Shown here piece after piece: positions 7,526 through 43,406 of a DNA stretch of 43,406 nucleotides. Location: positions 1 to 43,406 of the forward strand of contig JAUWPI010000003.1 of assembly GCA_030611665.1 (NCBI GenBank), read 5' to 3'. The notes beneath the pieces were generated by a model. It saw only the letters and a program-made list of their open reading frames with translations, was not told the DNA's origin and did no database searches. A program made the position numbers and the translations under genes. Origin of the DNA: Candidatus Heimdallarchaeota archaeon (GTDB lineage: Archaea > Asgardarchaeota > Heimdallarchaeia > Heimdallarchaeales > Heimdallarchaeaceae). Within the stretch, counting starts at the first letter, position 1. Every line of letters starts with the position of its first letter.

Positions 7526-7530
7526 TTAAA

Positions 7531-8571: not shown

Positions 8572-8669
8572 TTTTCTCCCTTTTTCTTTCTTTTTATTCT
8601 TATTTTACAAACTTCTTAGCTAGTACCATAAGATAAATTATATATCTCCTATACTTCAGTAAACAAATC

Positions 8670-9254: not shown

Positions 9255-9255
9255 G

Positions 9256-10290: not shown

Positions 10291-10593
10291 ATTTAGAATA
10301 AAGTCAAAGAATAAAAACTTTTACAACAAATAACAGAAGAATAAACTAATTGATTAGAGAAGAGAGTTGAAGGAACTTTCTAGCAAATTAGGTGACAAGA
10401 GCAATCATTTTTTCTACGAGTATTGCTTTTGAGGTGTGAGTACTTGTCGGTGAATAGAGAAGATTTGGTGCAAATGCTTGATAATGGTGTTTTATTATTT
10501 TTGTCCCAAATCTTGCTAATCTGTCTTCACATGTGTAAGGAACAGTTTATTAAAATAAGTTTAAATATAAAAAAGCGTTTACTTTTAGATAGA

Positions 10594-24076: not shown

Positions 24077-24489
24077 TTACTTGTATGATTTCCTCCCTTT
24101 TTTCTTATCCTTTCAACTATCTGAATGATTCCCCAAATAAACAAAGTCACCCCAGCAAAGAAGATAATAATCGCAAGAATTATCACTACTATTCCAAGAG
24201 GAAGCTTATCTCCTGTAAGACCAATACCAAAACCTACTTCTGCCCAATCTCCTCCAAAAGAAAGGAAAAGTAACCAAGAAGTATAAGCTAAAGGCATCAT
24301 CCATATCATCTGAGCAGAAATACCCAAGACAATTGGTACATACAGCCATATCGAACTCAAAAATAGTAGTAATTTGGCAATTACTTCTTTTACATTTATC
24401 TTGAATCTTTCCCTCACTTTAGTCCTCCCTACTTCTTTTTCTACGTCTATATCTTCTTCATCTGTGTTCAACTCATGGCTATCGCTCAT
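23998..24489 (-). CDS. Membrane protein resembling N-terminal half of the ICMT-like protein at 29404..30267 (catalytic half absent)
   Basis: IWLYVPIVLGISAQMIWMMPLAYTSWLLFLSFGGD...GVTLFIWGIIQIVERIRKKGG aligns with IWIYSPIIASILIPMAYMLPLAFSSWSMFAFFGNP...GLTLFIWGVITLVKVKKKKEG. Start overlaps upstream stop (ATGA). Confidence 0.72.
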   Translation of the reverse strand: MSDSHELNTDEEDIDVEKEVGRTKVRERFKINVKEVIAKLLLFLSSIWLYVPIVLGISAQMIWMMPLAYTSWLLFLSFGGDWAEVGFGIGLTGDKLPLGIVVIILAIIIFFAGVTLFIWGIIQIVERIRKKGGNHTSNYLQYIFVLFLLTTRIAIEIKKIIVN

Positions 24490-26192
24490 ATGATTTTTCC
24501 TCTTTTTAGTTGTCTATTAACATAATAATAAACTCCCCCGTAAAAAGGAATGGCTAAAAGAAACATAAAGTACCAATAATTGCTCTTATCCTTACTTGTG
24601 GGGTCTTCAGGGGATATAGTAGGTGGATATTCTGGGGGTTCAGATAAGGGATAAAGATCTGAAGCAAAAGCAAAACCTGCAATATCGTAACGGATGGTTC
24701 CGTTCCAATTCGACCAATAATTTCCCTCTTGCGTCGCTTCCTCGTGCCAGGTATTATTCTCTCCTGCATCATATCCTTGAGATGTGCTACCGATTTTGTT
24801 TCTCACAAAGGTATTATGATGAACCAGATTGTTTGATGAGGTGTCATCAATCATAACTCCATAACCAGTATTCTCAAGTAGATTGTTATATGTTATCAAG
24901 CAATTACTTGAATTGACTAAGCTAAGACCATTATTATTATTGTCTGAAAGTGTATTATTCACTAATATACTGTTTGTACTCTCACTCACAAGTATACCTT
25001 GTTTCGTACTATTTTTGCAGTAATTATTTTCTAATGTAATGGTATCAGACTCATAAACACCTATCCCATTTTGATTATCAATACAAGTATTATTACTAAT
25101 TATTAAATCAGCACTTCTGGAAATATAAAGCCCTCCCCATTCATTATTAACAAAATAGTTGCTTGCTATTGTGGCACTGTCAACAGAAGAAATGTATCCA
25201 GCATCATAATTATCAAACAAATAATTATTCTTAAAAAGCAGATTAGGACAGAAAGATAGCCATAAAGTGTAATAACTTTGACTGAAACTACAATCTGAAA
25301 CTGTTAAATTACCACAGTGTCTTGCATAAAGGAGAAACTTAGCATCACTAAGATTTTGATTTCTTATGGTTGCATTAGCACAAAAAGAGAGTAAGATCTG
25401 TCCATAAGCTTCATCTGATAAATCTAGATTACTCTGATTACCAAAGAACCCTATTAATTTACTCTTTATCAAGTTGTTCTGAACGTTATATAGTTTGTAA
25501 TTATTCCAATCTGTGCATTCTAAACCACCATTTGTAAAAGAGTTATTGATGATATTGCTAAATGTAGAAGATTGTATTTCTAGTCCAACCATCCCTCCAT
25601 CTATTATAGTATTATTTGCTATTGTTGAGTAAGGAGAATAATGAAATAGCATCCCAACACCATAAAAATCTGTATCAATACACGTATTATTTGTTACATA
25701 AGCAAAATCACAACTTGTTATCCAAATACATCCACCATAATTATTTCTAATTTCGTTGAAAGTTACGGTGCAATTATCAGCTGAATTTATTTGTATGCCC
25801 CAATATCTTCCGTTAATAGTATTATTAGTGATGATTGCTGTGTTTGCGTCCACATGACTGATATAAATGCCACCATCAGTAAATGTGCAATTGCGAATAA
25901 GGAAGTGTTTTGTTGTTTGAATTATGTTAATATTTTGACTAGAACCTGACAAAGTATAATTCTCAATAACATATGGATCAGTAATATTTCCTGAACCTGG
26001 GAAACCATAAGTGATAAAATCTTCATCTGAATCTATCTCAAAATAGGGAGGAGCTGCTAATTCTATGGGAGAATAAGCTTCATCATTCATTGAGTTAGTG
26101 TGTGAGATGTTCAATGAAGAAATAATTATTATCAGGAGATAAGGAGCAAGAATCTTTTTCTTCAATTTCAGGTGGTAAGTGTTTTGCTTCAT
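24486..26192 (-). CDS. Right-handed parallel beta-helix (NosD-like) surface protein with C-terminal TM
   Basis: Repeated 'xxITNNTINGxxxGIQIxxxDNCTVTFNEI' repeats; GNYWSNWNGT; C-term TM YWYFMFLLAIPFYGGVYYYVNRQLKRGK. Start at 26192 preferred (AGAGGATTGAAATG). Confidence 0.85.
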   Translation of the reverse strand: MKQNTYHLKLKKKILAPYLLIIIISSLNISHTNSMNDEAYSPIELAAPPYFEIDSDEDFITYGFPGSGNITDPYVIENYTLSGSSQNINIIQTTKHFLIRNCTFTDGGIYISHVDANTAIITNNTINGRYWGIQINSADNCTVTFNEIRNNYGGCIWITSCDFAYVTNNTCIDTDFYGVGMLFHYSPYSTIANNTIIDGGMVGLEIQSSTFSNIINNSFTNGGLECTDWNNYKLYNVQNNLIKSKLIGFFGNQSNLDLSDEAYGQILLSFCANATIRNQNLSDAKFLLYARHCGNLTVSDCSFSQSYYTLWLSFCPNLLFKNNYLFDNYDAGYISSVDSATIASNYFVNNEWGGLYISRSADLIISNNTCIDNQNGIGVYESDTITLENNYCKNSTKQGILVSESTNSILVNNTLSDNNNNGLSLVNSSNCLITYNNLLENTGYGVMIDDTSSNNLVHHNTFVRNKIGSTSQGYDAGENNTWHEEATQEGNYWSNWNGTIRYDIAGFAFASDLYPLSEPPEYPPTISPEDPTSKDKSNYWYFMFLLAIPFYGGVYYYVNRQLKRGKII

Positions 26193-26420
26193 TTCAATCC
26201 TCTCAAAGCATCTTTTCTTGTACTTCAACCTATTTCATTTAACACATCTTAATTCTTTTTCACAAGTATTAGATCCGGATTAGTTTTTTCAGTCTGCTCA
26301 ATTTGCTTAAACATTCTTCTTTATTTATATATAAAAATCTATCTTGTTTGAGCGCTATAAAAGAATAGAAACATCATTGTGGATAGCTAACCAGAACAAC
26401 GCACATCAAACTATGATCGT

Positions 26421-27020
26421 TCACCTAGATAATGATACTAACCCAAGTACAATCCCATACTCGGCATTTTTTTCGTAATCAGCTTGATCTTTTCCTTCTT
26501 CTCTTATAACATCAAACGAACTTATAGATTTATGAAGTAGTTCTGTAGCTTTCTCTAAGTCTTGATTATTGAATAATATCAATTTACTAAACGGAAGTGT
26601 TTCTTTTTCCATTTGTTCTTTTATCTCTTCGTTAGACATAGTTGAAACATCTATAATCTGTTTACTTATTGCAAAGGCTGTTAGATAAAGTTGAAATAGT
26701 ATAGCGTCACGCATTTTTCCAGGAGAATCTCTCAATCCTCTCCTCAGCTCTCTCTCTTCTTTTTCATAAAATTTTTTGTTTATGGTATATGTTTTTTCTA
26801 TTAAATTTGTTCCAGCAACAACATTTGTCTTTGAAATTATCAATTCTCTTTCCTCTAAATGTTTCAAATGGTAGTAAATGTTCGTTTTTTTCAAATTCAG
26901 TTTTTTTGCAATTGCTTTTGCAGTGATACCATCACTTCTCATAATGTCGAACCATATTGCTATCTTTATTGGGTCATTCACGAGATCAAGAATATCAATT
27001 GAAACTCTAGATTTGCTCAT
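26421..27020 (-). CDS. ArsR-like winged-helix transcriptional regulator
   Basis: VNDPIKIAIWFDIMRSDGITAKAIAKKLNLKKTNIYYHLKHLEERELI; start at 27020 (MSKSRVS) preferred by alignment with paralog 30482..31090. Confidence 0.82.
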   Translation of the reverse strand: MSKSRVSIDILDLVNDPIKIAIWFDIMRSDGITAKAIAKKLNLKKTNIYYHLKHLEERELIISKTNVVAGTNLIEKTYTINKKFYEKEERELRRGLRDSPGKMRDAILFQLYLTAFAISKQIIDVSTMSNEEIKEQMEKETLPFSKLILFNNQDLEKATELLHKSISSFDVIREEGKDQADYEKNAEYGIVLGLVSLSR

Positions 27021-27311
27021 ATTTCTCAAATTAAAATAGATAGAAGAATTATAAATGTTCTGAATTTGATAGAAGTAGTATGTAGATTTAACAGGAAAGA
27101 GCAATTACCTTTCGACACATAGAGCGAAGATTCTCTTTCCGTTTCTTAATCTATTCTAATGTTAAGTATCGCTCTATCTGTGTAGAGAGACATTTATATA
27201 TTATGAATCGTAGAAAATAAACAATTTACACAATTTAAGAAGTAAATAATTGTCAAATCTAAACCAAAATACAACAATTTCAGACTTCTAGACTGTTAAA
27301 GGGTGAAATAG

Positions 27312-29393
27312 GTGAAAACAAGAAAATCCATGATCATAGTAATCGTTTTGTTAATCAGTGTGAATTCCTTTACACCAAATTTGAGTTTTGCTAAAAATAG
27401 TAACGGCAAACAAGTTCCAGAGACAAATTATGTTGACCAAGAACCAATTATCATTCTTAACGATGACAATTTTACAGATTATGGCTTTCCTGGTTCTGGA
27501 ACTCTTGTTAATCCATATAGAATTGAGGATCTGATTATTACTTCAAATGGTGAATACTCAATTTCAGTTCAAAATACAACAAGCTATTTCATAATTAGGA
27601 ATTGCTTTCTCAACTCAACAACTAACGGTATAAAACTAAAGGACATTGCATATGGAACTGCAGTGATAGAAGATAATCATTTTTCTAACTTTGTACTAGG
27701 GATAGGACTATACATAGAGAACTCTTCTTCTTGTGAAATCATTAACAATTCCTTTTCAAACACACGAACTGGTGTCATGACCGGACTAGGTTCTAATGAG
27801 TGTCTTGTCCGGAATAATTCCTTTGAGTATATTTTAGATGGGTGCTTTTTGATGCAAGAATCAAATGACTGCGAGATTAGCTCAAATGAGTGCTTCTCTT
27901 CGAGAAATTTCTTACATGCATACCATTGTAACAATTTAACAGTGGTTAACAATTACTGTAACGACGTGCAATCATTCGTATATGTGGGTTACTCCGAATT
28001 ATGTAATATTTCCAATAATATCTGTTATAATGTTGCTGAATCTGCTATAATTATTTCTAAAGTCGACATTTGCAATATTTCTTCAAATATTTGTAATACA
28101 AGCTTAGTTGGTTTCAGGGTAATATCTTCATCAAAAGTAGAAATAAACTCTAACATAATAGACGGAGGAATCTATGGTTTAGGAATTTATAAGTCCAGAG
28201 AATGTTATATCAAAAATAACAATTTCACAAAATGTGGTATTTCTATTGAAGAAATGGAAAAAGAAGATATTCATACTTGGATACTAGAAAATAATCATGT
28301 TAATGGAAAGACTCTCGGTTTCTACAAGCATAAAGGGGCAGGTTTTATAATAGAAGGTGATTATGGTCAACTTATTCTACTTAGTTGTTCCAAAGTAATT
28401 GTAAGGAATATCGAGATCGAAGAAACCAGCATGGGAATTGGTGTTTTTTATTGTTTTGATACAATAATCGAAAACTGTACGATTAATAATACGTTTAACA
28501 ATTTTGTTCTTTATGGATGCATTTCTTGTAACCTCACATCAAGTTACAGTTTTAATTCCACATATGGCATACTAATCGATAATTCAGAAAATTGCTTTAT
28601 TATCAATACTGAGTGTTATGAGAATGATTATGGGATTAGGGTTAGACAATCTGAATATTGTAGTATTAATAAGAATAGCATATATGAAAATACCTTCTAT
28701 GGAATTGAAATCCATTACTCAAATTACTGTAATATTACTGAAAATCAATGTTATCAAAATACAAAGAGCATTTATCTTCACAATGCTTTTACCATCATTA
28801 TCGAAAACAATGAAATATCAGCAAATCATCCAAATCTTGATTATAGTAAGAATTCTGCAGGGATTTATTCAACAATAGCTATGGAGGTTACAATCACACA
28901 GAATTCTTTTACTTATAATAACATAGGGGTGTTTCTTTCACTTGGACGTTATTTTACAATTTCTGATAATGAGTTCAAATATAATGAATATGGTATTGAC
29001 GGTTTTCACGTCTTAAACAGTGAAATCAAATACAATTTGTTCGAAGAAAGCGAATTTTATGCACTTACTTTAGGTTATTCTTCAACCGAAAATACTATTC
29101 ATCATAATGCTTTCATTAACAATAATAACGGGAAGATACAGGCTCTAGATAATGGTTCCAATAATACTTGGTATGAAGTAGAGACAGAAGAAGGTAATTA
29201 TTGGAGTGATTATCAAGGAACAGGGAATTACAGTATAGATGGTGAAGCTAATTCTTATGATCTTTATCCACTTGCAGAATCACCTATCTCTTCTCCACCA
29301 AACAACAATATTTACTATGCGTTTTTCTCACTGTTAGTACTAATTCCGATAACAGTATTACTAATCAAGAAATATAGAATTAAAAAAAATTAA
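27312..29393 (+). CDS. Right-handed parallel beta-helix (NosD-like) surface protein with C-terminal TM
   Basis: DDNFTDYGFPGSGTLVNPYRIEDLIIT, many 'SxxCxIxxNxCxxN' repeats, SNNTWYEVETEEGNYWSDYQGTG, C-term TM YAFFSLLVLIPITVLLIKKYRIKKN. Confidence 0.87.
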   Translation: MKTRKSMIIVIVLLISVNSFTPNLSFAKNSNGKQVPETNYVDQEPIIILNDDNFTDYGFPGSGTLVNPYRIEDLIITSNGEYSISVQNTTSYFIIRNCFLNSTTNGIKLKDIAYGTAVIEDNHFSNFVLGIGLYIENSSSCEIINNSFSNTRTGVMTGLGSNECLVRNNSFEYILDGCFLMQESNDCEISSNECFSSRNFLHAYHCNNLTVVNNYCNDVQSFVYVGYSELCNISNNICYNVAESAIIISKVDICNISSNICNTSLVGFRVISSSKVEINSNIIDGGIYGLGIYKSRECYIKNNNFTKCGISIEEMEKEDIHTWILENNHVNGKTLGFYKHKGAGFIIEGDYGQLILLSCSKVIVRNIEIEETSMGIGVFYCFDTIIENCTINNTFNNFVLYGCISCNLTSSYSFNSTYGILIDNSENCFIINTECYENDYGIRVRQSEYCSINKNSIYENTFYGIEIHYSNYCNITENQCYQNTKSIYLHNAFTIIIENNEISANHPNLDYSKNSAGIYSTIAMEVTITQNSFTYNNIGVFLSLGRYFTISDNEFKYNEYGIDGFHVLNSEIKYNLFEESEFYALTLGYSSTENTIHHNAFINNNNGKIQALDNGSNNTWYEVETEEGNYWSDYQGTGNYSIDGEANSYDLYPLAESPISSPPNNNIYYAFFSLLVLIPITVLLIKKYRIKKN

Positions 29394-30267: not shown

Positions 30268-30481
30268 ATTTAATCAAAAGATCTTGTGTTTGACTCAGAA
30301 ATATCAGTTCAATCAGTGTCATTATAAGGAATAGTACTAATAGTACCTCTTGATTTTTGAAAATATATTAACGTTCTAAATATTTTGAATAAGTTTATAA
30401 CTATAAGCGATGATAGTATACCAACAAGTTACTGATTTATTACAGAGATTAGAGGAGTTTCATAGAATGAAGGGTGGTAAA

Positions 30482-31090
30482 ATGAGTGAAAAGAGTATTT
30501 CTATAAAGATGCTTGATATGGTTAGCGATCCCATCAAGATAGAAATTTGGGATGAAATCATGCGGGGAGTCAATTTGACCGCAAAAGAATTAACTAAAAA
30601 GCTTAATCTAAAAAAGACAAATATTTACTATCATCTCAACCAATTAGAAGAGAGCAAGTTAATTGTTTCTGAGAACCATATCCTTCCAGGAAAGAATCTC
30701 TTACAAAAAACGTATAAAATCAATGAAGAAATTTACAGTCCGAAAGAATTTAAGGTTAGAAAGGAGCTAGTGGAGAATCTTGATAGAATGAGAGAAGCTG
30801 CTCTCTTTCAGCATTACTTAGTTGTGATGCATCTAAATAGGAAAATTTTACAGATATCAGAAATGACCAATGAAGAAGTTAAGGAGTCAATAAAACAAGA
30901 TAAACACAGTCTTGCTAAAATTCTTTATATCAGAGATAAGGATTTAGCTCTTGTTAGAGAGACATTAAATGGGTTGGTTGACGCAATCATTGAATCGCAG
31001 AGAAAAGATACATCTCCAACAGAAATCTGGGAAGACATAACACATGCAATGATATATGGACTATTACCAACGGAGAAGGATGTAAAATGA
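30482..31090 (+). CDS. ArsR-like winged-helix transcriptional regulator (paralog of 26421..27020)
   Basis: VSDPIKIEIWDEIMRGVNLTAKELTKKLNLKKTNIYYHLNQLEESKLI; internal ATG at 30482 preceded by GGGTGG. Confidence 0.82.
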   Translation: MSEKSISIKMLDMVSDPIKIEIWDEIMRGVNLTAKELTKKLNLKKTNIYYHLNQLEESKLIVSENHILPGKNLLQKTYKINEEIYSPKEFKVRKELVENLDRMREAALFQHYLVVMHLNRKILQISEMTNEEVKESIKQDKHSLAKILYIRDKDLALVRETLNGLVDAIIESQRKDTSPTEIWEDITHAMIYGLLPTEKDVK

Positions 31091-31096
31091 TGTAAA

Positions 31097-31822
31097 ATGA
31101 TGGAAGATTCTGTTCTAACCAAAACTAAAAGATTTATTAGAAAAAACAACTTAGTCTTTCGTGCTACTGTATTAGTTATTCTTATCGTTGTAACAGTTTA
31201 TAGTTTTTTTCTAGAGGATAGTTTACTTCGAGTTATTTCCATCTTAGCCATTTGTACAACGGTTGCTTCCTTTCTCTCTCACTATGTTTTCAATTACTTT
31301 TATGGTGAAGGTTACAAACTTGCTTATGTTATAAATGAGATCCTTTACCTGTTTGTTGGTATACCAATCATGATTATTGCTATAGGGTATCTTCCACTTA
31401 GTATCTACACGCTCTTTTTTGCTACTGAGGATGCTAGTTGGATTGTTCCCATTTTGATAGCTATCATGGTCACCGCACAGGTTTTTTCCTTTGTCTACAC
31501 TCTAAGACATAGAGGGAAGGAAAAAGGGAGAACTATTATTCAGAATATCAAATATCTATTTGATTTTAAGACCAGAGCAGAAGAACAACGAAAGCACCTA
31601 GAACAAGCAGAGCAGATTGAAGAGTTTTACACAAGGATGGGTTCAGTGAATTTAAACGTTGAAGAAATGATGGAGGATAGTAAAGTAGTTTTTAGAGAAG
31701 ATGAGTTAAAGGGTAACCGAGGGATAAAACTAGAAAAACGAGTTTGTTGGAATTGTAAAACAGTTAATGAAGGAGATTCAATAATCTGTGAAAAGTGTGG
31801 ATGCAAACTTGAAAAAGGGTAA
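31097..31822 (+). CDS. Multi-TM protein with C-terminal zinc ribbon
   Basis: About four TM helices, then LFDFKTRAEEQRK..., C-term CWNCKTVNEGDSIICEKCGCKL. Confidence 0.75.
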   Translation: MMEDSVLTKTKRFIRKNNLVFRATVLVILIVVTVYSFFLEDSLLRVISILAICTTVASFLSHYVFNYFYGEGYKLAYVINEILYLFVGIPIMIIAIGYLPLSIYTLFFATEDASWIVPILIAIMVTAQVFSFVYTLRHRGKEKGRTIIQNIKYLFDFKTRAEEQRKHLEQAEQIEEFYTRMGSVNLNVEEMMEDSKVVFREDELKGNRGIKLEKRVCWNCKTVNEGDSIICEKCGCKLEKG

Positions 31823-31932
31823 TCTTGCTTGATTAGGAGAACTAGTTTTACTATTTCTAATTTAATAGAAAGGAAATAGATTTGCTTAGAAATGGCTTCT
31901 TAAAATTCAATATCACTTAACATAAAATCAAA

Positions 31933-32130
31933 ATGGGCTCAGTTTTCATCCTTTTGTTGCTGATTCTTTTGTTAATCCTAAATCCTTCAATCGCGGGTAG
32001 ATTTATTCATTACTTGAATTCTATTTCTAAAACCTATAATAGTTTACAAAGAAAAAAAGGTTCATACCTAAATGAAAGAGAAAATTATTTTTCATTTATT
32101 CTAGATGTTTTATCCTCCTCTTTCTCATGA
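31933..32130 (+). CDS. Small single-TM protein, possibly TatA-like
   Basis: MGSVFILLLLILLLILNPSIAGRFIHYLNSISKTYNSLQRKKGS: short N-terminal TM followed by amphipathic segment. Overlaps 3' end of the opposite-strand gene. Confidence 0.35.
   Translation: MGSVFILLLLILLLILNPSIAGRFIHYLNSISKTYNSLQRKKGSYLNERENYFSFILDVLSSSFS
32041..32105. repeat. ~65-bp 3'-flank repeat, copy 1
   Basis: agtttacaaagaaaaaaaggttcatacctaaatgaaagagaaaattatttttcatttattctagatg; compare copies near 40252 and 41059. Confidence 0.7.
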
Positions 32131-33763
32131 ATATAACAGCTACTACTATGATCCCTCCATATATTGGAAGAAAATACAATCCGAAGAGATATGTCCAATT
32201 ATCCCATTGTAAGGGGTTACTTCCATGTTCCACTTCATATCCATCTTTTCGTCCATCTTTATCTGTGTCAGATGTGAAAATAGATGTATGATAGGTTTTG
32301 AGTTCTTCATAATTAGTTAAACCATCATTGTCTTCATCTTCATTAGCATCATTAACTAATGGATTCAAGCCTATTTGCACTTCTAAACCATCTAGTAAAC
32401 CATCATTGTCAGAATCTGAATTTGTTCTATTTGTTTGATAAAAATTTTCAGTGATATCATCAAGATAATCGCTATCGCTATCAATATTCCCTGTTCGGAA
32501 AATAGAACCTCTGTAACAATGCCAAGGAAAAGCACCGGAAGAATCAATATTTGGAAATGAATAACAAAACAACACATTGTCAGCGCCAATCAGTATCTCA
32601 AGAATACCGTCATCATTTAAATCGGCAACACAGGGATTGGTTGTGATTCTATTTTTTAAAATGAAATTTCCTGTTTCTATACCTTCATGATTAATGATGT
32701 GAAAAACCATATTTGAAGGAACTAAGATTTCTAGATACGTGTCGTTATCTAAATCAGCAAGAACGGGAGACTTAATCTTATTTCCTGAAGTGAAAATCCA
32801 TTCAATTTCACTAGTATAATTCAAACAATACAATCCTGTGCTTTCGGACCCTATCAATATTTCAGGAAAACCATCATTGTCTATATCTGCTGCAACAGGT
32901 GATGAAATTGTAGAATTAGCATTAAAATGCCATTTTTCTAGACCATTATTGTTCAAACAATAAAGATAATTATCAAGAGTTATAAAAAGTATCTCCAGTT
33001 TCTCATCATTATCTACATCTACTGCAATAGGATTAATAATTGAAGTTGTATGATTTGCTAAGAATCGCCATTCCTCTTTGCCTTGATGATCCAAACAGTA
33101 TAAGGTAGAGTTGTAAGTGCCCATAAGAATTTCCAGCGTTCCATCACTATCCAAATCTGTCACGCAAGGAGAATAGATTGTATCGCTATTTATTTCATAT
33201 ATCCATTTTTCTATACCTAAATAACTTATGCAATAAATTTTTGTAACATAGGAACTAGAAGTTGCACTAATAGATACTACAATGATATCAAGTTCTCCGT
33301 CATCATCAACATCAGCTATGCAAGGAATGCCAAGAGTTATTGGAACTTCTTTCTGCCATTGAGTTTTCCCCTTTTCATTTAAACAATATAGGTTATATCC
33401 ATCTGCTATTAGTATCTCTATTTTACCATCGTTATCTAAATCTGCTAAACTTGGAGAATTTACAATTTGTCCTTCTGTTGCAAATGACCAAATCTGTTCT
33501 CCTGAAGCATCCAAACAATATAAGTTTCTATCTAGTGAACCAATTAATACTTCTAGCATACCATTCCCATCTAAATCTGCTATACAAGGGGATGAAAAGA
33601 GAAAAGTATGATCTGCTTCAAATTTCCATTCCAAACGACTATCAAGGGAATATACTGAATGAATGTCAATAAATTTAAATCTAGTATCCTTTGGACTAGC
33701 TAAACAAAGAAAAATAATAATCACTATTGTGGAGGACTTTTTCCTTCTCTGCATTTTATTCAC
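32096..33763 (-). CDS. FG-GAP/PQQ-like 8-repeat beta-propeller surface protein with TSP3/EF-hand-like Ca-binding tail and C-terminal TM (propeller A)
   Basis: Eight 'SPCIADLDxDGxLEILIGSxDxxLYCLDxxGxExWxF' repeats; DSDSDYLDD...NSDSDNDGLLDGLEVQIGLNPL...DEDNDGLTNYEELKTY...DTDKDGRKDGYEVEHGSNPL; TM tail. Confidence 0.88.
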   Translation of the reverse strand: MNKMQRRKKSSTIVIIIFLCLASPKDTRFKFIDIHSVYSLDSRLEWKFEADHTFLFSSPCIADLDGNGMLEVLIGSLDRNLYCLDASGEQIWSFATEGQIVNSPSLADLDNDGKIEILIADGYNLYCLNEKGKTQWQKEVPITLGIPCIADVDDDGELDIIVVSISATSSSYVTKIYCISYLGIEKWIYEINSDTIYSPCVTDLDSDGTLEILMGTYNSTLYCLDHQGKEEWRFLANHTTSIINPIAVDVDNDEKLEILFITLDNYLYCLNNNGLEKWHFNANSTISSPVAADIDNDGFPEILIGSESTGLYCLNYTSEIEWIFTSGNKIKSPVLADLDNDTYLEILVPSNMVFHIINHEGIETGNFILKNRITTNPCVADLNDDGILEILIGADNVLFCYSFPNIDSSGAFPWHCYRGSIFRTGNIDSDSDYLDDITENFYQTNRTNSDSDNDGLLDGLEVQIGLNPLVNDANEDEDNDGLTNYEELKTYHTSIFTSDTDKDGRKDGYEVEHGSNPLQWDNWTYLFGLYFLPIYGGIIVVAVIFMRKRRIKHLE

Positions 33764-35444
33764 TCAATTTTTTAAGTTTTTTCCCCCTCAATTTTATTAT
33801 AAGAATAGGCACAGCAATTGCTCCCCCATACAGAGGTAGCAAATACAACCCAAAGAGATAGGTCCAATTATCCCATCGTAAAGGGTCACTCCCATGCTCT
33901 ATCTCCCAGCCATCTTTTCGACCATCTTTGTCTGTGTCAGAGGTGAAAATAGATGTGTGGTAGGTTTTGAGTTCTTCATAATTAGTTAAACCATCATTAT
34001 CTTCATCTTCATCCGCATCATTAACTAATGGATTCAAGCCTATTTGCACTTCTAACCCATCTAGTAAACCATCATTGTCAGAATCTGAATTTGTTCTATT
34101 TGTTTGATAGAATTCCTCTGTAACGTCATCTATATAATCGCTATCGCTGTCAATGTTTCCTGTATTAAAATTTGATCCTCCTTCACGATGCCAGGGGGAA
34201 GCACCTGAAGAAACAACATCAGTAATCGAGATACAATAGAAAGAGCTTGGTACACAACTGATCACTATATCAAGAATCCCATCAGCATCTAAATCAGCAA
34301 TACAAGGAGAAGAGGGGTACTTACAGTCTAAATCATATCGCCATTCTTCTCCTCCTAGATGACTAACACAGTATAGCACGCCATCTTTAGCACCAACCAT
34401 TATTTCCAGAGTTCCATCACCGTCCAAATCAGCAACAGCAGAATTCAATGGTTGCTCTTGTAACAAAAACTTCCACACCTCTCCTCCTGTGTAATTCAAA
34501 CAATTGAGAGCATTGTCATCAGAACTAAATATTATTTCCAAAAACCCATTGTTATCAACATCAGCAATTATTGGTAGATACGAATAATCTCCTGGGGTGT
34601 ATCGCCATTCTTCTCCTCCTGTGTGATTCAAGCAATACGTATAATTATCATGAGATGTGAACAAGATCTCCAATGTTCCATCATTATCTAAATCAGCTAC
34701 TGAAGGGGGTGCTACAACTCTCTCATTTGTAACGAAATTCCACTCTTCTTCTCCTAGATGATTCAAACAGTGAAGTTTCTGATCATGAGAACTAAAAAGT
34801 AGTTCTAATGTATTATCACCATCTAAATCCGCTACAGCTGGTGAATACCAAATTGCACCGCTGTGAGTATAAACCCATTTTACTTCACCCAGACTATTTA
34901 AACAATAAATACTGGATCTAGTTCTTTCGTTTCCAGTAAATGCGCTTACTATAATATCGAACTCACCATCATTGTCGATATCAGCAATGCAAGGTGCACC
35001 CATTATCTTCCCAATTTTATAATGCCATTTCTCTTTTCCTTCATTGTCCAAACAATAAAGAGTTGTGTAAGTACATATTAAAATATCAGCTTTTCCATCT
35101 CCGTCCAAATCAGCGACGCTTGGAGCACCATTAACAAAGTGCTCTGTATCAAATGTCCATATTACTTCGCCTGAATAATCCAAACAATATACTCTACCAT
35201 CAGAACTACCTGAACCAAATATTATTTCCAGCATACCATCTCCGTCAAGATCAGCTACACTGGGAGGTTCTCCAAATGCGTCATCTTCTTTGTTTGAATC
35301 AAATTTCCATTCTAAAAGTCCATCAAAGGAAAAGGTTGAATGAATGACTACGATTTTAAACCTAGTATTCCCTGAACTAGCTAGACAAAGAAAAATAATA
35401 ATCACTATTGTCATGAACTTCTTGCTTTTCTGCATTTTATTCAC
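33756..35444 (-). CDS. FG-GAP/PQQ-like 8-repeat beta-propeller surface protein with Ca-binding tail and C-terminal TM (propeller B)
   Basis: Same architecture as propeller A; start (GTG or ATG) overlaps or abuts the upstream gene's stop. Confidence 0.88.
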   Translation of the reverse strand: MNKMQKSKKFMTIVIIIFLCLASSGNTRFKIVVIHSTFSFDGLLEWKFDSNKEDDAFGEPPSVADLDGDGMLEIIFGSGSSDGRVYCLDYSGEVIWTFDTEHFVNGAPSVADLDGDGKADILICTYTTLYCLDNEGKEKWHYKIGKIMGAPCIADIDNDGEFDIIVSAFTGNERTRSSIYCLNSLGEVKWVYTHSGAIWYSPAVADLDGDNTLELLFSSHDQKLHCLNHLGEEEWNFVTNERVVAPPSVADLDNDGTLEILFTSHDNYTYCLNHTGGEEWRYTPGDYSYLPIIADVDNNGFLEIIFSSDDNALNCLNYTGGEVWKFLLQEQPLNSAVADLDGDGTLEIMVGAKDGVLYCVSHLGGEEWRYDLDCKYPSSPCIADLDADGILDIVISCVPSSFYCISITDVVSSGASPWHREGGSNFNTGNIDSDSDYIDDVTEEFYQTNRTNSDSDNDGLLDGLEVQIGLNPLVNDADEDEDNDGLTNYEELKTYHTSIFTSDTDKDGRKDGWEIEHGSDPLRWDNWTYLFGLYLLPLYGGAIAVPILIIKLRGKKLKKLSE

Positions 35445-37134
35445 TCAATTTTTTAAGTTTTTTACCTCTCAGTTTTCTCAAGAATATAATTACTACAGCG
35501 ATAATTCCTCCATACAGTGGTAGGAAATACAATCCGAAGAGATATGTCCAATTGTCCCAACGTAAAGGGTCACTGCCATGCTCTATCTCCCAGCCATCTT
35601 TTCGACCATCCTTGTCAGTGTCAGAAGTGAAAATGGATGTGTGATAGATTTTGAGCTCTTCATAATTAGTTAAACCATCGTTGTCTTCATCTTCATCAGC
35701 ATCATTAACTAAAGGATTCAGACCTATCTGCACCTCTAGGCCATCAATTAAGTCATCACCATCTGAATCTTTGTTAGAGGAGTTGGTAGAATAAAACATC
35801 TCTGTAACATCATCTAGATAATCCCCATCACTATCGATATTTCCAGTACTAAAGATGGATCCCCTATGGCGATACCAAGGTAGTGCTCCAAAGGATTGTG
35901 TTGTTGAAGAGGTAAAGCAATATAAAAAGGAATCAGCACCAAATATTATTTCCAGAGAGCCATCATTTTCTAAATCAGCAACACAGGGAGCAGCCCTACA
36001 TTCACCTTCCACGCTAGATTGCCATTCAACAGTTCCCAAATGATTGATGCAATACAAAACACCTGTATCTGTTACTCCCACTATTTCAAGAGTACCATCA
36101 CCATCAATATCAACTATGCTTTGATCTTCCAGAAAACCATTAAGAGATATACTCCATTCTTCGAATCCTTGATGGTCGAGACAATACAATCTACCATCAT
36201 CAGAACAAAAAATTGCTTCCAAAGTTTCGTCATCATCTAAGTCAGCTAAAGAGATAAAAGATGTATGATTTCCAATAAAACAACTCCATTCTTCACCACC
36301 CGTCGAATTTAAACAATAAATATGCGTATAAACAAACGTATCATAGGATGTAAAAAGAATCTCTAGCTGTCCATCATTATCTATATCAGCTATTGAAGGA
36401 GATTTATTTGCTGTCTCATTTGTGACAAAACGCCACTTTTCTTCTCCAGTGTGATCTAAACAGTAAAAATTGTTACTAATTGAACCAAAAAGAATCTCCA
36501 GATATCCATCATCATCTAAATCAGCTACACTAGCGGAATGAAAAACTTCATCGTTAAGTTTTTTACTCCATTTTACTTCTCCTAAATTGTCTAAGCAGTA
36601 AACATAGAAATCACGAGAGGGAGAACGCAATCGTCCTATGGTTAAAATATCCAGAATCCCATCCCCATCTATATCTGCAATGCAAGGAGTAGTAGCAAAT
36701 GTTATCTGCTCAAATCGCCATAGTTCTCTGCCTTTGTAATCTAAACAGTAAAGAAAATGCATATCTGCAAATAATATCTCCATTCTTCCATCATCATCTA
36801 TATCTGCTGCACTAGGATTTGTTGTTATCTGATACTCAGTTTCGTAAATCCACTGTACTTTACCATCAGAATCTAGAACATATAATTGATTTACATTTAC
36901 TTGATGTTCACCAGAACAGGCTATTATCTCAAAAATACCATTTCCGTCCAAATCTGCGATTAAAGGGGAAAGAGGACCAAAATAGTCCTCCTCTGATAAG
37001 AAACTCCATTCTAAAAGACCATCAAGGGAAGAAACCACATTTCTCTCCAATTGAAGAGGATATAGTTTACAATAACTATTGAAATAAAAACATAAAACGA
37101 GTGTGAGTACTAGAACCTTCTTCTTTAGTTTCAC
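35437..37134 (-). CDS. FG-GAP/PQQ-like 8-repeat beta-propeller surface protein with Ca-binding tail and C-terminal TM (propeller C)
   Basis: Same architecture; 4-nt ATGA overlap with upstream wHTH gene 37131..37622. Confidence 0.88.
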   Translation of the reverse strand: MKLKKKVLVLTLVLCFYFNSYCKLYPLQLERNVVSSLDGLLEWSFLSEEDYFGPLSPLIADLDGNGIFEIIACSGEHQVNVNQLYVLDSDGKVQWIYETEYQITTNPSAADIDDDGRMEILFADMHFLYCLDYKGRELWRFEQITFATTPCIADIDGDGILDILTIGRLRSPSRDFYVYCLDNLGEVKWSKKLNDEVFHSASVADLDDDGYLEILFGSISNNFYCLDHTGEEKWRFVTNETANKSPSIADIDNDGQLEILFTSYDTFVYTHIYCLNSTGGEEWSCFIGNHTSFISLADLDDDETLEAIFCSDDGRLYCLDHQGFEEWSISLNGFLEDQSIVDIDGDGTLEIVGVTDTGVLYCINHLGTVEWQSSVEGECRAAPCVADLENDGSLEIIFGADSFLYCFTSSTTQSFGALPWYRHRGSIFSTGNIDSDGDYLDDVTEMFYSTNSSNKDSDGDDLIDGLEVQIGLNPLVNDADEDEDNDGLTNYEELKIYHTSIFTSDTDKDGRKDGWEIEHGSDPLRWDNWTYLFGLYFLPLYGGIIAVVIIFLRKLRGKKLKKLSE

Positions 37135-37622
37135 GTTTTATCACTTGTATTCTTATACATATCAAGTTTTTCCTTTTCCTTTCTATATTGTATGAAGCTA
37201 ATTATACCATGCGCTGTTAAGCCAATTATTCCATTAATTGCAGCAGCAATAGGATCAAAGAAAATTAAAACTAATGTTAGAATTGCCATGACAAGAAGAA
37301 AACTCACCTTAAAGACATTATTTGTTACCAGAGTTCCCTTGAACAATCTTGCTTTTACAGTAGTTGAAACATTGAACGATTGTGTGGATTCACCTAATTC
37401 AGACAAAACGTATCTATTTGACGATAATTTTGTAACTAACCCTGCATCCTCTAGTCTAATTAAGTGCCTATTAACTGTATTAGAACTTCTCATCTTAGTT
37501 GCTCTTAATGCCTCTCTTATTCCTACAGTTTCAGGATATTGGTTTTTTATAAAAAGAAAAATCTTTAGAGTTTTAGGATCCTCTAAAGTTTCTTGTGATT
37601 CTGAAATTGTGCCTTCTTTCAT
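37131..37622 (-). CDS. Membrane-anchored winged-HTH transcriptional regulator
   Basis: PKTLKIFLFIKNQYPETVGIREALRATKMRSSNTVNRHLIRLEDAGLVTKLSSNRYVLS (wHTH), then two TM segments VFKVSFLLVMAILTLVLIFF and AAAINGIIGLTAHGIISFI. Confidence 0.78.
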   Translation of the reverse strand: MKEGTISESQETLEDPKTLKIFLFIKNQYPETVGIREALRATKMRSSNTVNRHLIRLEDAGLVTKLSSNRYVLSELGESTQSFNVSTTVKARLFKGTLVTNNVFKVSFLLVMAILTLVLIFFDPIAAAINGIIGLTAHGIISFIQYRKEKEKLDMYKNTSDKT

Positions 37623-37634
37623 AACATCACTTTT

Positions 37635-38369
37635 TCATGTTGTACTGAACATTGTTTCCAATAATTGGTTAATTGCATTAGTATAATGTGGGAATATGTC
37701 GGGTAAAATGGCCATGAAGTCTCGTTCCTCAAATTTTTTGTCTCTCTTTGTACCTGATCCAGTGCTATCTGAATAATACTCTGTAAATCTCCAATATTCT
37801 ATAAAAACAACATTGTCAAACGACCTGAATCGAAAATTAGACCCATCTTGGTAAGTATGCATGATTTCAAACATAATTTTACCAGTTGTAAAGTGTTCTT
37901 CTATTAGTTCATCGTAATTTTCCGTAACATCTACAATTTCTTGAGCTGTAGAGATATCCTTAGCAATAGCTGTTGAAAGGGGTGTGAAATGTTCAGGGTT
38001 TGTGGTATAATCTCCTATACCTCCATCAGGATTGTCGTGTGCAGTTATTCTCCACTCCCATTCGTCAGTTTCAAGGTTTAACCATGACGCTATAAAGCCA
38101 ACTGAATAATTAAAATATGGAAGTTGTGTTGCACTCCATGGTTGAGTAACTTCAGCAACAAATGTTAAAAAACTATAGAAGTAATCAGACCTTTCTGAAA
38201 TTTGTTCAGAAAGCATCAGTGGAGTATCGAAATTCCAATCAAAAGGAGGATATGGAAGAGTTTGTTTAGTACCAGTTATACCGAAGTAAATTCCTGAATT
38301 CATTGATGTTAATAAAACGGCAAACACAATTCCTAAAATTATGCTCTTTTTTGTGTCTGTGAATTTCAT
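37635..38369 (-). CDS. Secreted protein of unknown function, first gene of propeller operon
   Basis: N-terminal signal/TM KKSIILGIVFAVLLTSMNSGIYFGI; 12 nt upstream of the wHTH gene. Confidence 0.72.
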   Translation of the reverse strand: MKFTDTKKSIILGIVFAVLLTSMNSGIYFGITGTKQTLPYPPFDWNFDTPLMLSEQISERSDYFYSFLTFVAEVTQPWSATQLPYFNYSVGFIASWLNLETDEWEWRITAHDNPDGGIGDYTTNPEHFTPLSTAIAKDISTAQEIVDVTENYDELIEEHFTTGKIMFEIMHTYQDGSNFRFRSFDNVVFIEYWRFTEYYSDSTGSGTKRDKKFEERDFMAILPDIFPHYTNAINQLLETMFSTT

Positions 38370-38415
38370 TGTTAATCATGAAAACAATATCTTGAACCTA
38401 AATAAACTCCCTCAC

Positions 38416-38431
38416 GGAACACTAGTGTTCC
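38416..38431. promoter_or_regulatory. Perfect 16-bp palindrome (candidate operator) upstream of the propeller operon
   Basis: GGAACACTAGTGTTCC equals its own reverse complement; lies between start codon at 38369 and a TATA-like stretch at about 38476-38490. Confidence 0.55.
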
Positions 38432-38568
38432 ATAATGAAACATTTGCAACTTGTTTATCTCATGTAAATATTGAAATTAATATAAATATATAGAGAAAAA
38501 GGTTTACTAATACAGAAGCTGTAAAATTTATTTGATACCGATGATAGGATGAAATAAAACATTCTTCA

Positions 38569-40179
38569 TTACTTTTTCTTTCTATCTTGTTTTTTTAAAG
38601 GGCTACCTAAATCCTCCAATCTTTCTTTGAAATCAAATTTATCATAATCAACTCTTCTTTCCTTTTCTTGAGTTTCTATACGAGATGCTATTGTGTCTAG
38701 TTTATCAAAATTAGTTCGCTTTCTTTGTGTTCTCTCTTTCTCTTTCCTCATTTCTTCCTCTCTTGCATCAAAATCAAGTCTATATTTCAGGTATCCTTTA
38801 AGATTCATGTTCAATTTTTCTAGCTTTCTGTTTATGACAACAAAAATTGCTATTATCTCTAATGTTATGATAATTAAGGCGTTCAGCAATCTATAGAAAC
38901 TGTCATCCATCGGAATAAATTGACGTAATATTATAGTAAAAATATACGATACAACAATTATTATTCCCGGAAAAAACAGAAATAGATAGCTCAGATCACT
39001 TACAAGAGAAGTAATCGCATAACCCATTCCAAATATGACAAGGACCACATATTTGATTATGAGATAAGTTGCAATTATCGCAATTATGATCCACGAAACG
39101 ATAATTAGTGAATCATTGCTAGAAACAAAGGCATAAACAACAAATGTAACAAGAAAAATTGTTACAACCAAATCCTGTAAAGCTTTTTCTCTTTTAATTG
39201 ATAAAATTCTTCTTACTGAAGTTTTGTGTTCCTCATTTGAACTTGCAATTCCTGAAAGCTTACTAGTTACAGCTGTTTTACGGCTGAATAAGTTGACTTG
39301 ACAGTGGATACAATGTTCTAAGAACATATCAGTTCTTTCACCACAAACAGGACAATTAATCAAATTAAATGTCTCTTCTAGTTCTTGCTGCTCTTTTTGG
39401 TTCCCTACCTTTTCCACGTGTTTAGTTTTCTGCTGAAGAAGAGAAATAAAAGTTCTGGCTTGAATATGCTCCTTTGTAGTGGGAATTTCAGTTCTTGATC
39501 TTCTATCTTTAATTAGGAACGCTACTTTAGCTGCATAGGGTAAAAGAGGCTTAGTTAAAACATACTTTCTAATTCTTGAGATATCAATTATTAGTTTTAT
39601 CCCCACAACAATTATCAATCCTGATTCAACGAAACCATTGAATGTGACCAAGAAAGCAAAAAATGCTTCATCCCCAGCAGAACTTGATATCGCGCTGATA
39701 ATTGATACTATGATGGAAAAAAAAGCATAAATTGCATAAAACGCGCTCCCTATTTTCAAAGAGAAGATTTTATCGATTTTCTTAAAAAGTTTGTTTAACA
39801 AATAAAAACCAAAAATCCTCCCTAAGATAACTACGTACCCAGTCAATCCTGCAAAGAATGGCCAACCAAGAACTGCCATATCTACAAGTACTGCTCCTGA
39901 AAACGCTGCCATCCACAAAGCAGTTTGTTTTCCTGTCTTTGTAATATGATCAACAAAATAGATGTCGGTAATAGCATGTATTCCGTATGCTATAGGCAGT
40001 AAACTAATTGCAGATAATGTAAAAAGGATGTATCCGATTAGTTGATAATATTCTGCATTATGAAAATATAAATTGTACGCGATATTAAAAAAACCGACAA
40101 TAATAAATAAAATGCACCCTGAAAAAATAATGATAGAATGAATTCTTATAGGTTGTTCTGCCTTTTCTTGACTTCTCAT
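38569..40179 (-). CDS. Multi-TM protein with central zinc ribbon, two TM modules
   Basis: CPVCGERTDMFLEHCIHCQVNLF between TM modules; start at 40179 (MRSQEKAEQ) preferred over 40260. Confidence 0.75.
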   Translation of the reverse strand: MRSQEKAEQPIRIHSIIIFSGCILFIIVGFFNIAYNLYFHNAEYYQLIGYILFTLSAISLLPIAYGIHAITDIYFVDHITKTGKQTALWMAAFSGAVLVDMAVLGWPFFAGLTGYVVILGRIFGFYLLNKLFKKIDKIFSLKIGSAFYAIYAFFSIIVSIISAISSSAGDEAFFAFLVTFNGFVESGLIIVVGIKLIIDISRIRKYVLTKPLLPYAAKVAFLIKDRRSRTEIPTTKEHIQARTFISLLQQKTKHVEKVGNQKEQQELEETFNLINCPVCGERTDMFLEHCIHCQVNLFSRKTAVTSKLSGIASSNEEHKTSVRRILSIKREKALQDLVVTIFLVTFVVYAFVSSNDSLIIVSWIIIAIIATYLIIKYVVLVIFGMGYAITSLVSDLSYLFLFFPGIIIVVSYIFTIILRQFIPMDDSFYRLLNALIIITLEIIAIFVVINRKLEKLNMNLKGYLKYRLDFDAREEEMRKEKERTQRKRTNFDKLDTIASRIETQEKERRVDYDKFDFKERLEDLGSPLKKQDRKKK

Positions 40180-40251
40180 TAACAGACATCCTGTTTGTCG
40201 TGTTCTTATATGGATGATAAATATATTATCTACTGATACCACACTTATAAT

Positions 40252-40315
40252 AGTATACAAAGAAAAAAAGTTCTCAAAGATCGTAAGGAAAATTATTTTT
40301 AGATTATTTTTTTTG
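40252..40315. repeat. ~65-bp 3'-flank repeat, orphan copy 2
   Basis: agtatacaaagaaaaaaagttctcaaagatcgtaaggaaaattatttttagatt; matches 41059 and 32041 copies but is not followed by a propeller gene. Confidence 0.6.
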
Positions 40316-40353
40316 TGATTAGATTTAATAATGAATAATACTTAGTTTTCTAG

Positions 40354-41037
40354 ATGAGAAAACTGTACAAATATCTTCAATCTGTCTGTTTCATCATCTT
40401 AGTTATTTTCCATTCTCCCTTGTTTTATCCTTACGCAGCTATTTCTGAATATACAATATATACTCGTATGACAGAAATAGTTGTTCCACCAGCAATAGAT
40501 TATAGGGAGAACTACCCTAATACAACTTTTTTTGAGTTCGAATATAGTTTTGAGATTATCAACCCCTCAGGTAAAACGTTGTATATAATAAGCCATACCA
40601 CTTGTCTTGTTTTTATATCTGGCAATCTATCTTTTGAGAATGAGCATTATATTGGTCATGTATGCGGACCAAGTATATGTGGAAATATGTTCACCAACCA
40701 CACTATTAACCCTGGAATCACTGAAGGAACGCTAATAATTAACCTAGAAGTGAATGATACTTTAGAAGCTCTTCCTAATGGTAACTACACAATTTGGAAT
40801 ATTCTTGATGACTCTGAAGAAAGACATAATTACCATAATTTTACATCTGAAATCGCTGTAAATGGTTCAAATATCAAAATAACTCATAATGGAGCTAATG
40901 AAACATTTACTTTTCCTGAAGAACCTACTCCAACACCAACCCAAGCCTACTTCTTTGTAGCATCTCTAATGTTTGGGATATTGGTCTTTACCATTATTAG
41001 AAAACAATATAGATCACATTGTTCTAAAAGAGCATAG
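40354..41037 (+). CDS. Secreted / membrane-anchored protein, unknown function (paralog of 23411..24076)
   Basis: Signal peptide, N-glycosylation-like NxT/S-rich ectodomain with LPNGNYTI, PTPTPTQ linker, C-term TM FFVASLMFGILVFTIIRKQYR. Confidence 0.68.
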   Translation: MRKLYKYLQSVCFIILVIFHSPLFYPYAAISEYTIYTRMTEIVVPPAIDYRENYPNTTFFEFEYSFEIINPSGKTLYIISHTTCLVFISGNLSFENEHYIGHVCGPSICGNMFTNHTINPGITEGTLIINLEVNDTLEALPNGNYTIWNILDDSEERHNYHNFTSEIAVNGSNIKITHNGANETFTFPEEPTPTPTQAYFFVASLMFGILVFTIIRKQYRSHCSKRA

Positions 41038-41058
41038 ACATTTCTAATAACTGTTGTT

Positions 41059-41123
41059 AGTATACAAAGAAAAAAGGTTCACACATGAATGGAAAAGAAA
41101 TTATTTTTCAATGGTTTTAGATG
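41059..41123. repeat. ~65-bp 3'-flank repeat, copy 3
   Basis: agtatacaaagaaaaaaggttcacacatgaatggaaaagaaattatttttcaatggttttagatg, overlapping the 3' end of propeller D. Confidence 0.7.
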
Positions 41124-42777
41124 CTTTTATCAGCCTTTTTCTTATGAGGATAATAACTGCTACTATGATCCCTACATATATTGGAAGAAAATACAACCCA
41201 AAGAGATAAGTCCAATTATCCCATTGTAAAGGGTCACTATCATGTTCAACTTCCCAACCATCTTTTCTCCCGTCTTTATCTGTATCTGCAGTAAAAATAG
41301 ATGTATGATAAATTTTGAGCTCTTCATAATTAGTCAAGCCATCGTTATCCTCATCCTCATCTGCATCATTAACTAATGGATTCAATCCTATTTGCACCTC
41401 AAGTCCATCTAGGAATCCATCGTTGTCTGTGTCTGGATTAGTTATGTTTGTTCCATAGAATTCCTCTGTTACATCATCGAGATAATCGCTATCTCTATCG
41501 ATATTCCCCGTTCGGAAAATAGAACCTCTATTACAATACCAAGGAAATGCACCTGAGGAATCAATACTCGGAAATGAATAACAAAGCAAATCATTTTCAG
41601 CACCAATCAGTATCTCAAGAACACCATCATCATTCAAATCTGCAACACATGGAGAGTTTGAGATTCGATTTTTTAAAATGAAATTTCCTGCTTCTATATC
41701 CTCATGATTAATGATGTAAAAAACCATATCATTTGAAGGAACCAAGATTTCTAGATATTTGTCGTTATCTAAATCAGCAAGAACGGGAGACATCATCTTA
41801 TTTCCTGAAGTGAAAACCCATTCAATTTCACCAGTATAATTCAAACAAAACAAACCTGTGCTTTCGGAGCCAAATAATATTTCAAAATAATCATCATTGT
41901 CTATATCAGCTACAACAGGTGATGAGGGAGTAGAATTAGCATTAAAATGCCATTTTTCTAAACCATTATTATCCAAACAATAAAGATAATTATCAAGAGT
42001 TACAAAAAGTATCTCTAGTTTCTCATCTTTGTCCACATCCACTGCAATAGGATTCTTAATTGAACCGGTTTCGTTTGCTAAGAATCGCCATTCTTCGTTG
42101 CCTTGATGATCCAAACAGTATAAAGTAGAGTTGTAAGTGCCCATAAGAATTTCAAGAGTCCCATCACCATCCAAATCTGTCACACAAGGAGAAAAGATTG
42201 TATTGCCATTAATTTCATATCTCCATTTTTCGTTACCTAAGTAATTTAGACAGTAAATTGTTGTGAGATAGGAACCTGTAAAAGTTGCACTTATCGATAC
42301 TACAATTATATCAAGTTCTCCATCATTATCAACATCAGCAATACAAGGAATACTAAGAACTATTGAAATTTCCTTTTGCCATTGTATTTTCCCTTTCTCA
42401 TTCAAACAGTATAGATTATACCCATCTGCTATTAGTATCTCTATTTTACCATCACTATCCAAATCTGCTATACTTGGAGAATTAACGATTTGTCCTTCTG
42501 TTGAAAATGACCATATATGGTTTCCTGAATCATCCAAGCAATATAAATTTCTATCAAGTGATCCAATTAATACTTCTAACAAACCATCGCCATCTAGATC
42601 TGCTACACAAGGGGAAGAAAAGAGAAAAGCATGATCTGCTTCAAATTCCCATTCCAAATTACCATCAAGAGAATATACTGAACGAATGCCCACCATTTTG
42701 AACATGGTATTTTCTGAACTAGCTAAGCAAAGACCAATAATTATCAGAAATGTCATGAACTTCTTCTTACTCTGCAT
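41101..42777 (-). CDS. FG-GAP/PQQ-like 8-repeat beta-propeller surface protein with Ca-binding tail and C-terminal TM (propeller D)
   Basis: Near-identical to propeller A through most of its propeller; same architecture. Confidence 0.88.
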   Translation of the reverse strand: MQSKKKFMTFLIIIGLCLASSENTMFKMVGIRSVYSLDGNLEWEFEADHAFLFSSPCVADLDGDGLLEVLIGSLDRNLYCLDDSGNHIWSFSTEGQIVNSPSIADLDSDGKIEILIADGYNLYCLNEKGKIQWQKEISIVLSIPCIADVDNDGELDIIVVSISATFTGSYLTTIYCLNYLGNEKWRYEINGNTIFSPCVTDLDGDGTLEILMGTYNSTLYCLDHQGNEEWRFLANETGSIKNPIAVDVDKDEKLEILFVTLDNYLYCLDNNGLEKWHFNANSTPSSPVVADIDNDDYFEILFGSESTGLFCLNYTGEIEWVFTSGNKMMSPVLADLDNDKYLEILVPSNDMVFYIINHEDIEAGNFILKNRISNSPCVADLNDDGVLEILIGAENDLLCYSFPSIDSSGAFPWYCNRGSIFRTGNIDRDSDYLDDVTEEFYGTNITNPDTDNDGFLDGLEVQIGLNPLVNDADEDEDNDGLTNYEELKIYHTSIFTADTDKDGRKDGWEVEHDSDPLQWDNWTYLFGLYFLPIYVGIIVAVIILIRKRLIKASKTIEK

Positions 42778-42787
42778 TTTGCTACCT

Positions 42788-43406
42788 TCACTTTTCTATT
42801 ATTTTCAACTGCTTATTTTTTCTTTTTAAGCAAATAACAATTATAGTGATAATCCCTCCATAAACTGGTAATAGATATAATCCGAAGAGGTATGCCCAAT
42901 TATCCCATAGTAAAGGATTACTTCCATGCTCTATCTCCCACCCATCTTTTCTCCCGTCTTTATCTGTATCCGAAGTGAAAATGGAAGTATGATAGGTTTT
43001 AAGTTCTTCATAATTGGTTAAGCCATCGTTATCTTCATCTTCATCAGCATCATTAATCAAAGGATTCAATCCTATTTGCACCTCAAGTCCATCTAGGAAC
43101 CCATCGTTGTCTGTATCTGGATTAGTTATGTTTGTTCCATAGAATTCCTCTGTTACATCGTCTATATAATCACTGTCGCTGTCAATATTGCCGGTGTTAA
43201 AATTTGATCCTCTCTCACGGTGCCAGGGGGAAGCACCAGAGGAAACAACCCCAGTAATCGAGAAACAGTAGAAAGAACTTGGATATCCACTAATTAGTAC
43301 TTCAAGAATACCATCATCATTTATATCAGCTACACATGGAGAAGAACGGAAACTATAGTCAGAATCATATTGCCATTCCACCGCTCCTAAATGACTAATA
43401 CAGTAT
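42788..43406 (-). CDS. FG-GAP/PQQ-like beta-propeller surface protein (propeller E), 5' part beyond window
   Basis: The ORF track starts at an internal GTG (43381), but the frame stays open to the window edge as YCISHLGAVEWQYDSD, i.e. mid-propeller. Ca-binding tail and TM present. Confidence 0.85.
   Translation of the reverse strand, partial: YCISHLGAVEWQYDSDYSFRSSPCVADINDDGILEVLISGYPSSFYCFSITGVVSSGASPWHRERGSNFNTGNIDSDSDYIDDVTEEFYGTNITNPDTDNDGFLDGLEVQIGLNPLINDADEDEDNDGLTNYEELKTYHTSIFTSDTDKDGRKDGWEIEHGSNPLLWDNWAYLFGLYLLPVYGGIITIIVICLKRKNKQLKIIEK

Follow-up and report, generated by a model that had tools for sequence, protein, structure and literature searches.

The pilE gene of Neisseria and the vlsE gene of Borrelia belong to the cassette systems of antigenic variation, in which gene conversion acts among related surface-protein genes. 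Gene conversion is also established in polyploid Haloferax (PMC11276520), and in methanogens it homogenizes one domain of mtrA-1 and mtrA-2, paralogues of the same operon (PMC4632066). Long-lasting concerted evolution has been described for 26 genes in prokaryotes (PMC6053082). Paralogue gene conversion is already known in archaea, and the five genes described here, A to E of Candidatus Heimdallarchaeota archaeon, are a new and well-resolved case. Asgard archaea are the closest known relatives of eukaryotes; a literature search of limited coverage returned no report of gene conversion in their surface proteins, and nothing on point for Asgard gene conversion or for Asgard archaea together with FG-GAP domains.

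As in mtrA-1/mtrA-2, one domain of archaeal paralogues has been homogenized while the other stays distinct (PMC4632066). However, in mtrA it is the catalytic domain that is homogenized and the membrane part that differs, whereas here a stalk tract is homogenized and the outer head differs; the mtrA pattern also recurs over many species, as against two species here, plus similar patterns in related families. The locus shares with the genes under concerted evolution (PMC6053082) that conversion makes paralogues within a genome closer than orthologues, but only short gene tracts are affected, and these lie in surface proteins. In contrast to pilE and to the antigenic-variation cassette system of vlsE (PMC9604149), the part that moves within the genome is the conserved rather than the variable one, and the complete copies look expressible. 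Silent-cassette antigenic variation was considered and rejected: A to D are complete open frames, and no partial donor copies were found in the contig.

Architecture of the locus

The window, the whole stretch of 43,406 nucleotides that was analysed, spans contig C179 from end to end; the metagenome-assembled genome to which it belongs measures 2.74 Mb in 195 contigs. Genes A to E share the minus strand and are transcribed in the orders E-D and C-B-A. Gene A (32096-33763, with the ATG at 33754 as its likely start) and gene D (41101-42777) carry one type of head, here called a-type; gene B (33756-35444) and gene E (42788-43406) carry a second, b-type head, and gene C (35437-37134) a third. The contig end cuts E, of which the last blades, the TSP3 segment and the anchor are visible. 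The complete proteins have approximately 555-565 residues.

The proteins have a common layout. An N-terminal hydrophobic signal is followed by an eight-bladed propeller of the FG-GAP/PQQ type and a TSP3 calcium segment; a membrane helix comes next, and the chain ends in a short basic tail. The TSP3 (bacterial) profile PF18884 scored above the cut-off in all five genes in a Pfam profile search. The propeller, built of eight blade repeats bearing D-x-D-x-D-G-like loops, is supported by Pfam, by PDB matches and by a predicted structure: the model of A, whose open reading frame and Pfam matches give the same layout, is confident for the propeller (approximately residues 41-400, pLDDT blocks of 71-94) and unsure for the tail. 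Among known structures it is best matched by PQQ-type propellers, both natural and designed. The family resembles the eight-bladed examples among them (PDB entry 3hxj from Methanococcus maripaludis and the designed Cake proteins) in fold and in repeat sequence, but adds the TSP3 and membrane parts, which lie outside all of these matches. Judging by these domains, A-E are most likely surface receptors or adhesins.

Directly upstream of C, and overlapping its start, lies a gene (37131-37622, minus strand) for a protein with a LexA-like DNA-binding domain (a weak Pfam match, below the cut-off) and a hydrophobic stretch; from its position, it is possibly a regulator of C-B-A. Elsewhere the window holds two look-alike gene pairs, one of winged-helix regulators (26421-27104 and 30410-31090) and one of beta-helix proteins (24486-26228 and 27312-29393); the region may thus tend towards duplication.

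The nearest named relative with A-E-type genes is Candidatus Heimdallarchaeota archaeon 7H_bin4 (genome G014), which served as the second species. Its locus L041 (contig C121) carries gene b (Lb, 7311-8993) followed by gene a (La, 9012-10688), a two-gene unit as in B-A and E-D, and the tails of Lb and La are distinct from each other. Among 21 genomes of the genus, G014 alone was found to have A-E-type genes, and a search of contigs for relatives returned only L041 and one distant relative.

Mosaic structure of propellers and tails

The two parts of the proteins pair the genes differently: the propellers join A with D and B with E, whereas the calcium segment joins A with B and D with E. In a sliding codon alignment, A and B are 50-67% identical at the nucleotide level in the propeller and 97% identical (92% at third positions) at columns 461-500. 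D and E climb from approximately 50-63% in the last blades to 90-92% in the tail, and A and D drop from 83-93% in the propeller to 78-85% at columns 461-500. The highest identity of B and C, 92%, falls at columns 501-540, just downstream of the A-B peak, and both proteins contain the terminal LRGKKLKKLSE.

The preliminary description of this DNA, made from the letters alone, had the coordinates and the gene order right, including the repetition of B-A as E-D; every peptide that it quoted is found in the translations, and the calcium segment common to neighbours and the tail common to B and C are both borne out by the profile above. Its wording was too strong in two places. The propellers of A and D, termed near-identical, are related but share only approximately 84% of their amino acids (46 changes in 291 core positions), and the match of the last blades of B and E is present but amounts to approximately 75-85% of nucleotides.

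The A-B and D-E tail tracts reached a global P of 0.0005, the permutation floor, in a GENECONV-type test, also with third positions alone, and a 3SEQ-type permutation identified both D and B as mosaics, again at its floor (p=2e-5). At silent sites, too, the local similarity of A-B and D-E is well above that in the rest of the gene. The dS of A-B is 0.32 in the tract versus 1.84 in the propeller, and that of D-La is 1.90 in the tract versus 0.05 in the propeller core. Tail tracts of this length are too short for a simple run test on four-fold sites to have enough power.

Separate trees for propeller and tail, which had been proposed as a check with one common tree as the refuting outcome, gave conflicting partitions. 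The propeller tree fully supports (D,La),A and B,Lb, with 100/98 support for D+La over A, and the AU test rejects A+B (p=1e-10); for the last blades it rejects D+E (p=1e-76). The tail tract rejects three other groupings, A+D+La at p=0.001-0.002, D+La at p=0.009 to 3e-5 and B+E+Lb at p=0.002 to 0.0002. At the C-terminus the A+D+La grouping is back, with p=0.03 against both A+B and D+E. Support inside the tail-tract trees is low because the tract is short, and the conflict between tract and flanks is clearer for D than for B. Since the discordant tracts are short and have native sequence on both sides, the trees support the local gene conversion of the tail that had been postulated.

Comparison with L041 sets the limits of the tracts. 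D is a-type up to approximately column 467, E-like at approximately 469-510 and mostly a-type again from approximately 530; by codon, it is native to approximately 427, E-like at approximately 436-464 and native thereafter. Ahead of the core tract, third positions of D match La and E in a ratio of 37/2; within the tract the ratio is 0/16 and beyond it 29/11 (p=2e-5). This core lies at 41386-41472 (minus strand; columns 479-507), with an outer limit at approximately 41266, and matches its counterpart in E at 43070-43156 (minus strand). With L041 as the outgroup, the sequences clearly indicate that D received the tract from an E-type donor, in the direction E to D.

B is b-type to approximately column 473, matches A through approximately column 536 and is then b- or C-like. 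Its sites match Lb and A in ratios of 376/97 before and 2/20 inside the tract (p=2e-5; 7e-4 for third positions). The converted tract (33951-34106, minus strand; columns 485-536) has an a-type donor, probably A, where the matching stretch lies at 32282-32437 (minus strand). In the tract tree A lies nearer to La and does not group with B alone, which makes A less certain as the donor.

Exchange of the D propeller with a second species

The propeller core of D (41501-42468, minus strand), approximately 970 bp, was recently exchanged between species, with the lineage of 7H_bin4. This event was unexpected, and the preliminary description had no means of seeing it. It is approximately 98% identical to La (L041:9012-10688), compared with 78-90% for other genes. 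One of 101 four-fold sites differs between D and La in this core, against a background of 690/2350 (29%), summed over the four-fold sites of 18 other window genes compared with G014 (P=2e-14). In the same region B-Lb differ at 32/85 and A-La at 19/85 four-fold sites. The identical sites of D and La include a run of 89, which is beyond chance (p=1e-4). The sequence of D flanking the core diverges from La at the background level, and its N-terminus is only approximately 75% identical. The core itself differs from La at approximately 17-20 sites and hence is no literal copy, which disfavours mis-binning or mis-joining.

Origin of the gene pairs and mechanism of exchange

The block duplication that the preliminary description inferred from the repeated order stands only in part. 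The order B-A is indeed repeated as E-D, but the pairs do not come out as mutual closest relatives, as pairs from a recent within-genome block duplication would be: D groups with La and not with A, and the E|D junction goes with Lb|La, which it resembles at 72-85% versus 45-72% for B|A. The introgressed head of D may bias the outcome of this pair-kinship test. We give even odds to E-D being the counterpart of the b-a pair of the other species, through an older duplication or a transfer, and not a duplicate of B-A made here. The grouping of D with La in both propeller and C-terminus, the nearer junction and the protein identity of E to Lb (85%, versus 78% for B-Lb) all speak for such a counterpart, whereas the divergent N-terminus of D speaks against it, and the divergence of A from La, which is about that of the species background, blurs the order of events. 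Synteny with G014 gives no date for the duplication, because the genes on either side of A and D have homologues there that lie beside other neighbours.

In contig C15 of G014, a fragment (L086:2916-3278) that resembles window positions 31494-31857 adjoins the homologue of 40354-41037, and there occupies the place where D sits in the window; it is possibly the scar of a rearrangement.

A 35 bp stretch across the stop codon and the next start is identical at the C|B junction (35429-35463, minus strand) and the B|A junction (33748-33782, minus strand), and differs from the E|D junction. Because of this identity and the common LRGKKLKKLSE end, we suggest that C, B and A are linked by an older junction-spanning exchange or by unequal crossover.

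Homologous recombination requires sequence identity. Taken as a whole, the locus is very probably the product of identity-limited ectopic gene conversion in the tails, together with exchange of heads between species, in a set of membrane-anchored surface proteins. On this reading, genes A-E trade DNA through homologous recombination. The events inside the genome are ectopic (non-allelic) conversions: D took up a tract of approximately 90-200 bp from the tail of E, and B took up an a-type tract of approximately 150 bp, whose donor was probably A. The older exchange probably joins C, B and A across their junctions. Between species, approximately 970 bp of the D propeller was swapped with a relative like 7H_bin4. 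Purifying selection would keep the tail similar enough to recombine with any neighbour, whereas a- and b-type propellers (approximately 55% nucleotide identity) would be too diverged and could recombine only with their own type, across species too. Both the recombination machinery and this identity rule are inferred; the rule accounts for both kinds of exchange, and a benefit from a uniform anchor is therefore not needed. If the pattern holds across strains, head and tail are separate evolutionary units, whole-protein trees mislead, and whether species exchange surface heads can be put to a direct test.

A different emphasis, on conversion being favoured because it keeps the anchor uniform or the tail recombinable while heads diversify, appears unlikely. 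Homogenized TSP3-membrane or C-terminal segments do recur under different heads in two related genomes, and one head has been exchanged between species. A pair of paralogous TSP3 surface proteins (C1:618074-621259, L111, and C1:633561-636752, L112) is encoded in G022, a genome of the same family that consists of one contig. Their beta-helix-like heads share 74-82% identity, their TSP3 and membrane segment reaches 86-100% (mostly 96-100%), and the sequence right behind it falls to 60-76%. Four-fold sites give 23/69 versus 5/84 (p=1.5e-5, for segments picked after inspection), and a run test is weaker (p=0.019). In G007, adjacent TSP3 genes (C48:12287-26472; L115, L116) are 73-94% identical in nucleotides in their C-terminal parts and 39-74% in their heads. 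These cases suggest that a homogenized TSP3 tail under diverged heads is a recurrent pattern. However, identity-limited conversion yields the same pattern without any benefit, and propeller dN/dS of only 0.15-0.3 lends no support to positive selection on the propellers. Somewhat more doubtful still is the idea that the TSP3-TM segment is a homology platform, kept recombinable by conversion, from which interchangeable heads are shuffled among neighbours and species.

An assembly chimera, in which the conserved tail led to wrong joins between short reads from look-alike genes or strains, is improbable on indirect arguments. The mosaic does rest on one metagenome-assembled contig out of 195, and that contig breaks off within E, a common outcome at repeats. 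Yet the longest exact matches (53 bp for A-B and 44 bp for D-E) are below usual read lengths, the tracts contain differences and are followed by native sequence, the core of D differs from La as described above, and the comparable patterns in G022, itself a single contig, and in G007 speak against an artefact in the window. That selection alone kept the tail similar or made it converge, with no exchange of DNA, can be dismissed, since the tail is indeed more constrained (dN/dS 0.03-0.17 versus the propeller values above) but constraint on amino acids does not yield the switches seen at third positions and in dS.

Related sequence was also observed in G000. A further copy of the family (contig C35, L010:1-384) is truncated by a contig end where its TSP3 segment begins. 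In contig C184 (L009:592-2298), the tail is identical in protein sequence to that in G007 (dN 0, dS 0.25), whereas the propeller is far more diverged (dS of approximately 1).
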